Shown piece by piece: positions 315 through 6,264 of a stretch of DNA of 64,000 bases. Source of the DNA: Armatimonadota bacterium (GTDB lineage: Bacteria > Armatimonadota > Zipacnadia > UBA1398 > JAKPQA01); NCBI GenBank assembly GCA_029547025.1, contig JAKPQA010000182.1, positions 1 through 64,000 on the forward strand. The letters are read 5' to 3'. The first letter of the stretch is position 1, and every line of letters starts with the position of its first letter. The notes beneath the pieces were generated by a model. The model made no database searches. It saw only the letters and a program-made list of their open reading frames with translations, and was not told where the DNA came from. Both the position numbers and the translations under genes were made by a program.

Positions 315-640
315 GATGGTGCCTCCTCCGGCCGGGGCGTCCCGGGTAGCTGCCCCGGGCGATTGAGCATCGAGTCTCGGGGGTGGCAGTTGGCCATTGG
401 GTGCCCCGGCACCTACAGGTGGGCCACAAGGTTCCGCGAGCCAATGGGGTCCATGCCGGCTGTGGTGGCAGGTCCGGCGGGCCTGGGAGAACAGCGTCTT
501 GCGGCGGGGAGCCGGGAGCCTGGGTGGCCACTGACGAGGAAGGCGGGGAAACTTGTCAGGAAATGTCGGGTTGGTGCGAAGTGTTGACGGGTGCGGGGGT
601 CCATCAGGGGGAAGAGGGATGCTTCTCGGAGAGGGAAGGG

Positions 641-715
641 CGGGGCTGACGGGACTCGAACCCGCGACCACCTCATCGACAGTCAGGCACTCTAAACCAA
701 CTGAGCTACAGCCCC
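641..715 (-). tRNA. tRNA-Asp (anticodon GTC)
   Basis: Reverse complement GGGGCTG TA GCTC AGTTGGTTTA GAGT G CCTGA CTGTCGA TGAGG TGGTC GCGGG TTCGAGT CCCGT CAGCCCC G folds as a cloverleaf; anticodon GTC. One G-G mismatch in anticodon stem; CCA not encoded. Confidence 0.88.
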
Positions 716-822: not shown

Positions 823-1905
823 CTGTGGGGGATAGACGCGCAGTCGCTGAACGATATTGTTAACGTCTTCAAGTGCTGCATCTTCACCTGGAATATCTTC
901 ACCACGATGGTGCCGGCTTTCATTCTGGCCGGAGCCATCGCCGCATTCATCCCGGCCGAGAAGGTGCTGAAGTACCTGGGCGCGGACGCCAACCGCTTGG
1001 TGGCCTACACCGTGGCCTCGGTGTCGGGTGTGGTTCTGGCGGTGTGCTCGTGCAACATCGTGCCGCTGTTCGTGAGCATCTACCGGCGCGGGGCGGGGAT
1101 CGGTCCGGCGTCGACGTTCCTCTATGCCGGGCCGGCGATCAACGTGCTGAGCATGATCTTCGTGTTCCATGTGATCGGGTTCCGCATTGGCATCTGGCGG
1201 GCGATCGGGGTGCCGGTGATCGCGGTGTTGGTCGGGCTGCTGATGGCGCTGATCTGGGGCCGCAAGGACCGAGTCCGCCAGGCCGAGGCGGTGCTGCAGT
1301 ATGCGCCGAGCGCTGGCGGGCCCCGGCGGCTCCCCCTGGTGTTCGCATTCCTGCTGGCGCTGATGATCTATGGCGGGATCGAGATGCCGACCCTGCCGAA
1401 GGTCGTCGGGATGGTTGCCCTGGCGCTAGGGTTGGCGCTCACGGCGGCGAAGAGCATGGACCGCGACGAGTTGATGTCCTGGCTGCGCGAGACGGGCCTG
1501 CTCGTGAAGCTGGTGGTTCCGGTTCTGGTGCCGGCCGTGTTGATCATCGGGGCCATCGCCTATTACACGCCGATCCTGTTCATTGATAAGTATCTCGGCT
1601 ATCGGAACCCGTTTGCCACGGTCTATTCGGCCGTCTTCGGGTCGCTAATGTATTTCCCGATTCTAACAGAGGTCGCGTTTGTAAAGGCGTTTCTCAAGAA
1701 TCATATGGATGTCGGGCCCGCGTTCGCGCTGTTGCTGACGGGTTCGGGGCTTAGCCTGCCGGGGATGATCCTCATCGGCCGGGCGATGGGCGCGGGGCGC
1801 GTCGTCACCTATGTGCTGATCGTGTTGGCCCTGGTCCTGGTCACCTCGGCGATCTTCGCCCAGTCGATCGGCGCGTACATCTGCCCGTGTCAGAGCGGGC
1901 CGTGA
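823..1905 (+). CDS. DUF318/ArsP-like permease (heavy-metal/metalloid-type)
   Basis: Polytopic protein with VVLAVCSCNIVPLFVSIYRRGAGIGPASTFLYAGPAIN and LPGMILIGRAMG motifs typical of DUF318 permeases. Start uncertain: no ATG/GTG/TTG at the expected N-terminus (CTG at 823; first in-domain ATG at 907). Confidence 0.8.
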   Translation: MWGIDAQSLNDIVNVFKCCIFTWNIFTTMVPAFILAGAIAAFIPAEKVLKYLGADANRLVAYTVASVSGVVLAVCSCNIVPLFVSIYRRGAGIGPASTFLYAGPAINVLSMIFVFHVIGFRIGIWRAIGVPVIAVLVGLLMALIWGRKDRVRQAEAVLQYAPSAGGPRRLPLVFAFLLALMIYGGIEMPTLPKVVGMVALALGLALTAAKSMDRDELMSWLRETGLLVKLVVPVLVPAVLIIGAIAYYTPILFIDKYLGYRNPFATVYSAVFGSLMYFPILTEVAFVKAFLKNHMDVGPAFALLLTGSGLSLPGMILIGRAMGAGRVVTYVLIVLALVLVTSAIFAQSIGAYICPCQSGP

Positions 1906-1998
1906 TGTAGGGGCACCGCAGGTGCGCTACAATCGTGAGGTTATGGCCGGTAGCCCTTGGGTTGCGCACTCATTCGAGACTAATGAGGAGAGAGACTG

Positions 1999-2979
1999 AT
2001 GCGGCGATTGGCGTTCGTTGTGGCCGGAGTGCTCGTGGTCGGATCTCTGGCTGGCTGTCCGAGTAAGGCGCCGGACGACGGTGGCGGGGTTACGGCAGCC
2101 ACCGGAGGCAAGGGGGCGCAGGTAGCCAAGGCCGGTGGCGCGGCGCCGGGGGGGGCTTTGACCGGGAAGCTGGTTCTGTACATTCCATGCGGTCTCACCA
2201 TCCCGATGAAGGCGGTGGTGCAGGCCTTCAAGGCGGCTAACCCCGGGCTCGAGGTCACGGAGGAGTACGATAGCGCCGTGGTGCTGGCGCGGCGAATCAT
2301 CGACAAGAAGGAGCGGCCCGACGTCCTGGTGTCGCCTGGGCCGACGGAGTTGGGGTTGGTGGCGGAAAAGGGCCTGATCGATACCGCCAATCAGAAGTCG
2401 CTCGGGTCCTTCAAGCTGTGCGTGATCGCCCCGAAGGCGAACAAGGCGAAGATGGTCGCCATCGAGGACTTGGCTCGGGTGAAGTCCATCTCGTGCCCCG
2501 ATCCCAAGCTCAACTCCGTGGGTGCGGCCGCCCAGGAGGCCCTGACGAACATGGGGCTATGGGACAAGATCCAGAAGCAGTTGGTCTTCGCGGAGATCGG
2601 CCACGAGTCGCACAACCATGTGGCGGCAGGGCGGGTTGATGCGGGCATCTCGTTCCTGGCGTGCCCGTTGGACACGAACCCTGAGAAGCTCTCGAAGAGC
2701 AAGGTGACGATTGTGGGCGTGTTCCCTGACGGCACCTACAAGGAGCCGTCGGTGGAGGTGGCACCGCTGACGGAGGCCAAGAACCCGGCGGCTGCCAAGG
2801 CGTTCGTCGAGTATCTGGTCAGTCCGGAAGCACAAAAGATCCTGTCGGAGAAGGAGCTTCCGGGTCTCAGTGCTGAGACGACCGGCGAGGGGTGGCCGAA
2901 GCTGAAGGCCCCCGAGGGCACGGCGGCAGACAAGGCAAGTCCGGCGGCGAAGGGTGAGGCGAAGGGTGCCGGCGAATAG
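1999..2979 (+). CDS. ModA-like substrate-binding lipoprotein with PCG motif
   Basis: Lipobox (SLAGC); LVLYIPCGLTIPMKAVVQAFKAANPGLEV...RPDVLVSPGPTELGLVAEKGLI resembles periplasmic molybdate/anion-binding ModA fold; good SD (gaggagaga). Confidence 0.8.
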   Translation: MRRLAFVVAGVLVVGSLAGCPSKAPDDGGGVTAATGGKGAQVAKAGGAAPGGALTGKLVLYIPCGLTIPMKAVVQAFKAANPGLEVTEEYDSAVVLARRIIDKKERPDVLVSPGPTELGLVAEKGLIDTANQKSLGSFKLCVIAPKANKAKMVAIEDLARVKSISCPDPKLNSVGAAAQEALTNMGLWDKIQKQLVFAEIGHESHNHVAAGRVDAGISFLACPLDTNPEKLSKSKVTIVGVFPDGTYKEPSVEVAPLTEAKNPAAAKAFVEYLVSPEAQKILSEKELPGLSAETTGEGWPKLKAPEGTAADKASPAAKGEAKGAGE

Positions 2980-3023
2980 CCGGGTCTGATCGACCGTAGC
3001 GATGGGAGGCGTTCTGTTTGCCG

Positions 3024-4271
3024 ATGAAGCGTTGGCTACCTGTGGTGCTCCTGGCCGGAGCGATGGTGCTCCTAGCCGGCTGCAAGGGGCGTGGCGACTC
3101 CGAGGAGCCGCAGGCCGCTATGCCCAAGGCCCCGACGAAGGCGACAAAGGCGGTTGCGGCGGGCGAGCTCGGCCCCGGTGTCTACAAGCTCGATGGTTTC
3201 GTGTGCGTGACGGCATTCTACCCGGGCAATGAGGACCACCAGTGGGTCCGGGACTACCTGAAGCAGCTCGAGGACAAGCACCCGGGCAAGGTCAAGACCC
3301 GGTTCGTGGCGTTCAACACGGACGAGGGCGCCACGGAGTGGCAGGAGGCGGGGCTCGAGTGCGGGACGTGGTTCATCGACGGCGAGTCGGAGGTCACGTT
3401 CACCCAGGACGGCAAGGAGAAGACGGTCTGGTTCGTCAAGGAGGAGGGCGGCGAGTGGAGCGAGGCCGACCTGTTCGCGGCCGTGGCGGATCGGGTGTCG
3501 AAGCTCTCGGCGGGCGGCGCCGCGGCCAGTTCGACGGGTCCGCTCAGTGGCACGGTGGTGGTGTTGGTTCCGTGCGGTATGCAGGGGCCGTATGGGAAGG
3601 CTCGGGCCCTGTTCAAGGAGTCGCACCCCGACCTGAAGGTCGAGCAGGATGTGCAGAACATCGAGGTGCTCATCCACGGCATCGTCTCTGGGAAGTTCAC
3701 GGGCGACATCGTGCTCTCGATGGGCGATCGCGAGACGGCGTTCCTCAATGACAAGGGCAAGCTGGCGCGCGACCCGGTGCGGTTGGCCCGGAACACGCTG
3801 GGGATGATTGTTCCCAACAGCAACCCGGCTGGTATCCGGGGCTTCAAGGACCTCGCCAACGCGAAGGTCAAGACGCTGGGCTTACCAGACCCCGAACTCA
3901 TTTCGGCGGGCTACTACGGCAAGCAGGCGCTCGAGAAGGCCGGCCTGTGGGAGTCGCTGGCGAAGCGCGTATCGCTGGTGAAGTCCCCGGCGGCGCTCAA
4001 GGGCGACTTGGCGTCGGGCAAGATGCAGGCGGCCATCACCTTTGGCACCTGCATGACGGAAGCGAAGACTGTGGGGGGCGAGCCGACGAAGTCGGACAAG
4101 ACCGACGCCATCGACTACGTGCCGCAGGAGTACTACGACGAGTTCTACTGCACGGGTGCCGTGCTCAAGTCGGCGAAGAACCCGTCGGCGGCGGAGGCGT
4201 TCCTCCAGTTCATGACGACCGAGCCGGTGCAGAAGATCTTCGCGGAGTACGGGCTGAAGACGATCGAGTAG
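3024..4271 (+). CDS. Lipoprotein fusing thioredoxin-like N-domain and ModA-like PCG binding domain
   Basis: Lipobox (VLLAGC); N-part FVCVTAFYPGNEDHQWVRDYLKQLEDKHPGKVKTRFVAFNTDEGATEWQEAGLECGTWFIDGE is thioredoxin-like; C-part VVVLVPCGMQGPYGKARALFKESHPDLKVEQD parallels the preceding gene. Start ATG 3024 (TTG 3018 alternative). Confidence 0.72.
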   Translation: MKRWLPVVLLAGAMVLLAGCKGRGDSEEPQAAMPKAPTKATKAVAAGELGPGVYKLDGFVCVTAFYPGNEDHQWVRDYLKQLEDKHPGKVKTRFVAFNTDEGATEWQEAGLECGTWFIDGESEVTFTQDGKEKTVWFVKEEGGEWSEADLFAAVADRVSKLSAGGAAASSTGPLSGTVVVLVPCGMQGPYGKARALFKESHPDLKVEQDVQNIEVLIHGIVSGKFTGDIVLSMGDRETAFLNDKGKLARDPVRLARNTLGMIVPNSNPAGIRGFKDLANAKVKTLGLPDPELISAGYYGKQALEKAGLWESLAKRVSLVKSPAALKGDLASGKMQAAITFGTCMTEAKTVGGEPTKSDKTDAIDYVPQEYYDEFYCTGAVLKSAKNPSAAEAFLQFMTTEPVQKIFAEYGLKTIE

Positions 4272-5729: not shown

Positions 5730-5918
5730 CTACTTGGTCGCGGCCCCGTGGCACTTGGCCTTCTGCTCCTCCGAGCAAGCGGACGGATCCGGCGCGCCCA
5801 GGCACTCGCCGGCGTCAACGCACGGGTGCCCCTCGTCGCCGTGACACTTGCGGATCTGCTCGGGGGAACAGCTACCCGGATCGGCTTCTCTCGTGCACTC
5901 CGTCTTGTTCTTCTCCAT
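5730..5918 (-). CDS. Small Cys-rich peptide (62 aa) with duplicated CHG motif
   Basis: MEKNKTECTREADPGSCSPEQIRKCHGDEGHPCVDAGECLGAPDPSACSEEQKAKCHGAATK; 4 bp downstream of the arsR stop, same strand. Confidence 0.7.
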   Translation of the reverse strand: MEKNKTECTREADPGSCSPEQIRKCHGDEGHPCVDAGECLGAPDPSACSEEQKAKCHGAATK

Positions 5919-5922
5919 GGCT

Positions 5923-6264
5923 CTACTCCCTATCCCGTGCCGGGCATTCGTCCGGGCCCTGGCACGCACACGTCTGCTCGGCGGTGAGCAAGAGGCCGAG
6001 CTCCTCCCGGATCCGACGTATCGGGCCGTCGCAGAGGCGATAGTGGACGTGGTAGCCCATGCGTTCTCCATGGACGAGCCCGGCATCGGCGAGGCGTCTG
6101 AGGTGCTGGGATACGGCGCTGGGTGTGACGCCGATCTCTCGAGCGATGGCGTCGACACAGAGGGCGCGGCGCGCCACCTGGCGGAGGATCGCCACGCGAC
6201 TGGGTGCCGCGAAGGCTTTGGCGAGTTCGGCCAGTTCGAGGTCGGTCACATGCGAGCACCTCAC
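5923..6264 (-). CDS. ArsR/SmtB-family metalloregulator with Cys-rich C-terminus
   Basis: LELAELAKAFAAPSRVAILRQVARRALCVDAIAREIGVTPSAVSQHLRRLADAGLVHGERMGYHVHYRL...EQTCACQGPDECPARDRE: winged HTH plus Cys tail. Confidence 0.92.
   Translation of the reverse strand: MRCSHVTDLELAELAKAFAAPSRVAILRQVARRALCVDAIAREIGVTPSAVSQHLRRLADAGLVHGERMGYHVHYRLCDGPIRRIREELGLLLTAEQTCACQGPDECPARDRE

Follow-up and report, generated by a model that had tools for sequence, protein, structure and literature searches.

What does a permease of the DUF318/ArsP_1 family transport when it is encoded together with two lipoproteins that resemble the molybdate-binding protein ModA and carry paired cysteines in the ligand cleft? 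The question arises at positions 823-4271 of a 64,000-nucleotide stretch of contig JAKPQA010000182.1 from an Armatimonadota bacterium (assembly GCA_029547025.1; the whole stretch is referred to as the window). This region is a conserved system and not a chance arrangement, since the combination of DUF318 permease, ModA1-type binding protein, thioredoxin-like (Trx) domain and ModA2-type binding domain recurs across Armatimonadota. We lean slightly towards the operon being a periplasmic capture-and-transport system for a soft, thiophilic metal or metalloid, a ligand class that we infer. A preliminary description of this DNA had likewise proposed a thiophilic ligand rather than molybdate, and the proposal is supported by invariant cleft cysteines, lost ligand hydroxyls, a permease with six conserved cysteines and the lack, in many carrier genomes, of a molybdenum or tungsten cofactor pathway and of molybdenum enzymes.

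Binding proteins and permease

Within the first 4.3 kb of the window lie a tRNA-Asp gene (639-715, minus strand), the permease gene and two lipoprotein genes, the latter three all on the plus strand. The succession of a CSC-motif DUF318-type permease and two co-directional ModA-like lipoproteins, as described previously, is borne out by matches to PF03773 and PF13531 and by LAGC lipoboxes. The first lipoprotein, PBP1 (1999-2979), is of the ModA1 type, with a LAGC lipobox, a PF13531 match at 1.3e-37 and a score of 102.6 bits against the TIGR01256 modA model, over the cutoff of 62.5. Its AlphaFold model (predicted local distance difference test, pLDDT, of 92.8) has ModA-type binding proteins as its top Foldseek matches, with template modelling (TM) scores of 0.6-0.8 to ModA structures, confirming the ModA fold. 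PBP2 (3018-4271), also with a LAGC lipobox, consists of three parts, namely the lipoprotein signal, a separate domain at residues ~38-168 and a ModA2 domain (3546-4262) that matches PF13531 (2e-38, residues 181-413); it scores 46.2 bits against TIGR01256, under the same cutoff. Searching plasmids with PBP1 returned only ordinary modA-type proteins of less than 30% identity.

Both binding proteins share a PCG motif and a second aligned cysteine. In PBP1 the motif lies at 2185-2193 (Cys codon 2188-2190) and the distal cysteine at 2662-2664; the equivalent codons of PBP2 are 3573-3575 and 4050-4052. The PCG cysteine aligns in each case to position 11 of E. coli ModA, its glycine to Ser12, and the distal cysteine to position 173, three residues after Tyr170. 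Among relatives, the PCG cysteine is present in 34 of 39 ModA1 domains and the distal one in all 39, while both are found in all 21 ModA2 domains. With cysteine making up only ~1.6-1.7% overall, conservation on this scale rules out chance occurrence, and the shared pair noticed previously in the two proteins thus proves near-invariant. The ModA1 exceptions to PCG are tandem paralogues with PMG or PQG in Hebobacteria-type loci (L053, L054, L057, L094, L095). In these loci the first paralogue carries the altered motif and DUF318 is missing; they adjoin a conserved 391-aa membrane protein and several have a separate Trx gene.

Alignment to E. coli ModA also places Gly at Ser12 and Phe at Tyr170 in both proteins, with Ser39 replaced by Ala in PBP1 and by Ile in PBP2. 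We take Ser12, Ser39 and Tyr170 to be the molybdate-liganding hydroxyls of E. coli ModA, and, as judged by alignment, all three are gone in PBP1 and PBP2. The ModA4 paralogues have cysteines at ModA positions 38 and 41 (CPPC), 153 and 173, each in nine of nine domains, and the ModA3 paralogues near positions 9 and 41, which together with the ModA1 and ModA2 pair indicates that the paralogues placed cysteines at various positions surrounding the former oxyanion site. The Foldseek matches of the PBP1 model include 3axf, an engineered ModA A11C/R153C mutant that a review describes as containing a disulfide linkage and binding perrhenate more tightly (PMC8895017), so that a bridge from position 11 to the far side of the cleft is feasible.

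The middle domain of PBP2 (3129-3521) had been overlooked in the preliminary description. It is kept in relatives, lacks a CXXC active site and has one invariant cysteine in the sequence ECGTWFIDG (codon 3360-3362). Its AlphaFold model (pLDDT of 84) has thioredoxins as its top Foldseek matches, with a probability of 1.0 but E-values of ~1e-3 and TM scores of 0.4-0.5. The thioredoxin-fold assignment rests on this model, since a profile search of the PDB with the domain gave nothing significant. In most of the window's class the Trx domain is joined to the C-terminal end of ModA1, and in the window and other families to the front of ModA2.

The permease gene (823-1905, where 823 is a nominal start) matches ArsP_1 PF03773 at E = 5e-57, with 193.7 bits against a gathering score of 32.3. 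Codon 823 is CTG, a non-standard start, and the frame is open from 553; the conserved CC motif in transmembrane segment 1 (874-879) places the translation start upstream of ~870. The six cysteines of CC, CSC (1045-1053, Cys at 1045 and 1051) and CxC (1882 and 1888) are invariant in an alignment of 17 permeases that are 41-55% identical to that of the window. The best-named NCBIfam matches, the SaoE equivalog NF040736 (90.1 bits) and the SO_0444 Cu/Zn efflux model NF033936 (63.2 bits), both fall far under their curated cutoffs of 325 and 300. A plasmid search with the permease found one distant homologue, which clusters on a Leptolinea plasmid with genes for a regulator and a redox-active disulfide protein (Trx); this permease, the sole outside DUF318 permease compared, retains CSC but not CC or CxC.

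Distribution and ABC partners of the operon

When the ModA1 alignment was used to scan 85,488 species genomes, 15 loci were confirmed, and every one carries an Armatimonadota title (Armatimonadetes/Armatimonadia, Zipacnadia and Hebobacteria); the scan relies on two peptide patterns and may miss distant forms. ModA1 was detected at E<=1e-45 in 35 of 292 Armatimonadota genomes. Operon maps place DUF318 with ModA1, usually also with Trx and ModA2, in ~20 loci, and the pairing of DUF318 with PCG-type ModA proteins, for which a neighbourhood check had been suggested, thus recurs across families of the phylum.

The preliminary description had also stated that no ATP-binding cassette (ABC) ATPase is present. 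This holds locally, as no ABC permease or ATPase is found in or beside the window operon, nor an ABC module beside the operons of L027, L107 and L036; it fails for most relatives. Genes for an ABC permease, ModA4 and a WtpC-like ATPase continue the operon in L026, L029, L044, L045, L046, L047, L049 and L090, and the same genes accompany it in rearranged form in L056, so that at least nine relatives co-encode ABC genes with the operon; in L096, L097, L104 and L105 the ABC genes are arranged differently. It fails also for the window genome itself, in which a 3.75-kb contig (C282) carries the end of a ModA3 gene, an ATPase gene and a gene for an ABC permease that shares 52% identity with its L026 counterpart. 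The ABC permeases of genomes G005 and G105 are all distant, and G029 lacks any. Because ABC genes follow the same genes in most relatives, the lipoproteins probably derive from an ABC importer and probably still serve one in many genomes.

Other arrangements of binding proteins and permeases were also noted. On contig C57 of the window genome (L037, 2217-8751), a ModA4-type substrate-binding protein (SBP) with a Cys-rich cleft lies beside a cysteine desulfurase (TIGR01977), two ThiF-like genes, an ABC ATPase and a ChrA-looking open reading frame (ORF). In L034 (11012-14000) and L040 (6770-9000), ORFs that by eye resemble halves of the ChrA chromate transporter stand beside an ABC permease, an ATPase and ModA-like SBPs, and would represent another efflux-type permease paired with SBPs.

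Regulators and small proteins occur near several of the operons. An ArsR/SmtB gene with a Cys-rich tail (5923-6264, minus strand) lies 1.7 kb downstream of the window operon, and directly downstream of it, in the same direction, is a 62-aa Cys-rich ORF (5730-5918, minus strand) with repeats like DPxxCSxEQxxKCHG and no family match; it resembles a metal-binding peptide that ArsR would control. A MerR regulator fused to a thioredoxin_3 (ArsE/TsoX-like) domain stands beside the operon in L103 (8467-9255) and L036 (4580-5386) and is possibly a one-protein thiol or metal sensor. Near the operon in L052 (914-1186), L103 (11454-11696) and L105 (11252-11539), small proteins recur that resemble lipoyl carriers and have a conserved cysteine early in the sequence, together with a neighbouring Trx-like protein of 80-100 aa.

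Ligand and route of transport

For a metal(loid) system, the candidate ligands would be trivalent arsenic or methylarsenic, Hg(II)/methylmercury and Cu(I), with tellurium or selenium species possible. Hints of such a ligand among the neighbours in relatives are an ArsM-like methyltransferase directly upstream of the permease in L105, a MIP channel in L103, the MerR-thioredoxin fusions of L036 and L103 and SaoX/SaoP/SaoA-like ABC genes upstream in L051. The two ModA-fold lipoproteins, in which a single thiol on either side of the Venus-flytrap cleft would have replaced the oxyanion-binding hydroxyls, may grip the ligand by thiolate coordination between the lobes. The single-Cys Trx-fold domain would keep these thiols reduced or accept the ligand, and the six-Cys DUF318 permease would carry it across the inner membrane, in a direction suggested by analogy. 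Given that most relatives' operons include a dedicated ABC permease, an ATPase and extra Cys-rich SBPs, the ancestral system was probably an ABC importer, with DUF318 as a second route that would most likely serve homeostatic efflux; its relatives ArsP, acting on organoarsenicals (PMC7176098), and SO_0444, acting on Cu/Zn (PMC3219624; PMC10092412), both work in efflux. In ABC-free genomes, DUF318 might alternatively be an importer fed by the lipoproteins.

It is tempting to speculate that in the ABC-free operons of the window, L027 and L107 the Cys-pair lipoproteins hand their ligand directly to DUF318, forming a binding-protein-dependent secondary transporter, although we consider this rather improbable. 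Such a system would resemble the tripartite ATP-independent periplasmic (TRAP) or tripartite tricarboxylate transporter (TTT) families, with a thiol hand-off like that of MerP/MerT. To our knowledge, binding-protein-dependent secondary transport is not known for the DUF318 family.

Several observations weigh against a metal(loid) ligand. The loop that holds the distal cysteine is the weak spot of the PBP1 model (block mean of 65), and a resting disulfide between the cleft cysteines is possible. Among the loci mapped, no recurring neighbour names one metal, and arsenic-type neighbours are scattered single cases. Genome-wide, ArsM is mildly commoner in carriers (22 of 35, versus 142 of 292 overall), a difference too mild for the profile to count as proof of arsenic. 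NifS and MoeB/ThiF-like genes are more frequent among the neighbours than arsenic-type genes, and fit sulfur chemistry.

The latter genes are the main attraction of the alternative that survives best, a sulfur-compound system, which we regard as a minority possibility. Here the thiols would bind zero-valent or sulfane sulfur (polysulfide, thiosulfate or persulfide) by exchange or S-H contacts, and the sulfur would be passed inward to NifS, MoeB/ThiF-like and lipoyl-carrier proteins. NifS is encoded in L027, L048 and L105, MoeB/ThiF-like proteins in L048, L097, L104 and L105, and lipoyl-carrier-like domains in the three loci named above; a Trx domain with a single cysteine would also suit such a role. 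However, no NifS or ThiF gene was seen beside the window operon or in the full-operon class (L026/L029/L044-L047/L049), and organoarsenicals or Cu/Zn are the substrates of those DUF318 relatives for which there is evidence (PMC7176098, PMC3219624).

Somewhat less probable still is a function in metal resistance only, with the lipoproteins acting in the periplasm as sponges or chaperones to buffer the metal that DUF318 exports, and feeding no importer. The ABC-free operons of the window, L027, L107 and L036 are consistent with this, as are the efflux function of the ArsP and SO_0444 relatives (PMC7176098, PMC3219624) and the downstream ArsR gene of the window. Against it, at least nine operons contain ABC importer genes together with these lipoproteins, and the window genome keeps an ABC module on another contig.

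The molybdenum genes of the carriers bear on the remaining alternative. MoaC is absent from eight of the nine genomes with the full ABC-containing operon. Across all carriers it is absent from 11 of 35, against 125 of 292 genomes in the phylum, which is not a significant difference (Fisher p=0.20), and the case against molybdate is therefore built on the full-operon genomes and joint absence and makes no appeal to enrichment. Nine carriers (G001, G002, G014, G018, G019, G032, G038, G287 and G288), six of them at least 89% complete, lack MoaC together with PF00384 molybdopterin oxidoreductases, MoCoBD_1 and nitrogenase. As the window genome has both MoaC and a MoCoBD_1 enzyme, and given the Fisher result, the MoaC pattern speaks to what the operon does not need, and not to an association.

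Molybdate or tungstate nutrition is thus unlikely, and a variant uptake system for molybdate, tungstate or thiomolybdate appears very improbable, despite the ModA fold, the TIGR01256 score of PBP1, the L026 permease (over the Mo_ABC_porter cutoff) and ATPase (top match WtpC), MoeB-like neighbours at some loci and the molybdenum genes of the window genome, as Ser12, Ser39 and Tyr170 are lost and cofactor genes and enzymes are missing in many carriers; ordinary molybdate transport is likewise not supported. The counter-case foreseen in the preliminary description, homologues that adjoin ModB/ModC genes and bind molybdate, is found in its first half, with ABC adjacency in most relatives, and contradicted as implausible in its second.

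Comparison with known systems

The fold, PF13531 membership and ModB/WtpC-like partners in relatives tie the operon to ModA and ModABC/WtpABC. It differs from them in its replaced molybdate ligands, its cleft cysteine pair and the added DUF318 permease and Trx domain, and in that many carriers are without molybdenum cofactor synthesis. TIGR01256, whose cutoff PBP1 exceeds, labels such proteins 'molybdate ABC transporter substrate-binding protein', and this label is probably wrong. With ArsP and SO_0444 the permease shares PF03773 membership and the CSC motif, whereas its extra invariant CC and CxC pairs and its steady linkage to binding proteins set it apart. The engineered ModA 3axf has Cys 11, as in PCG, and Cys 153, as in the ModA4 paralogues; no natural domain here was seen with both, and ModA1 and ModA2 instead pair position 11 with 173. 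Across the phylum, at least four paralogue types of ModA-type binding proteins have had the oxyanion site rebuilt by cysteines in differing geometries, alongside a six-Cys permease.

The pairing of a DUF318 permease with periplasmic binding proteins had not been recognised as described, and a literature search, which covered the selenocysteine-assisted organometallic (SAO) system through a review, found no account of it. SAO comprises the SaoE permease, the SaoB/SaoX binding proteins, the SaoP/SaoA ABC transporter and the thioredoxin-like SaoT (PMC13188914). The types of parts are the same, namely a DUF318-family permease, thiol or selenol binding proteins, an ABC importer and a Trx-like protein; SaoE is the best-named match of the permease, and the permease and ATPase of the ABC genes upstream in L051 best match SaoP and SaoA (SaoX/SaoP/SaoA-like). 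In contrast to SAO, the binding and Trx proteins here use cysteine (TGC codons in open frames) and not selenocysteine, and the binding proteins are of the ModA/SBP_bac_11 lineage, with no SaoB or SaoX match among the window proteins. No MerB-like SaoL was found among the neighbours scanned at the loci, no genome-wide search having been made. Membership in SAO, or selenoprotein status, was rejected, as all SAO hidden Markov model scores lie far under their curated cutoffs and no in-frame TGA occurs at the cysteines. The best reading is that the system would be analogous to SAO, but Cys-based and of a different lineage. If its ligand is a metal(loid), it would be a Cys-based counterpart of SAO and a route devoted to acquiring or handling an element that normally appears only as a toxin.

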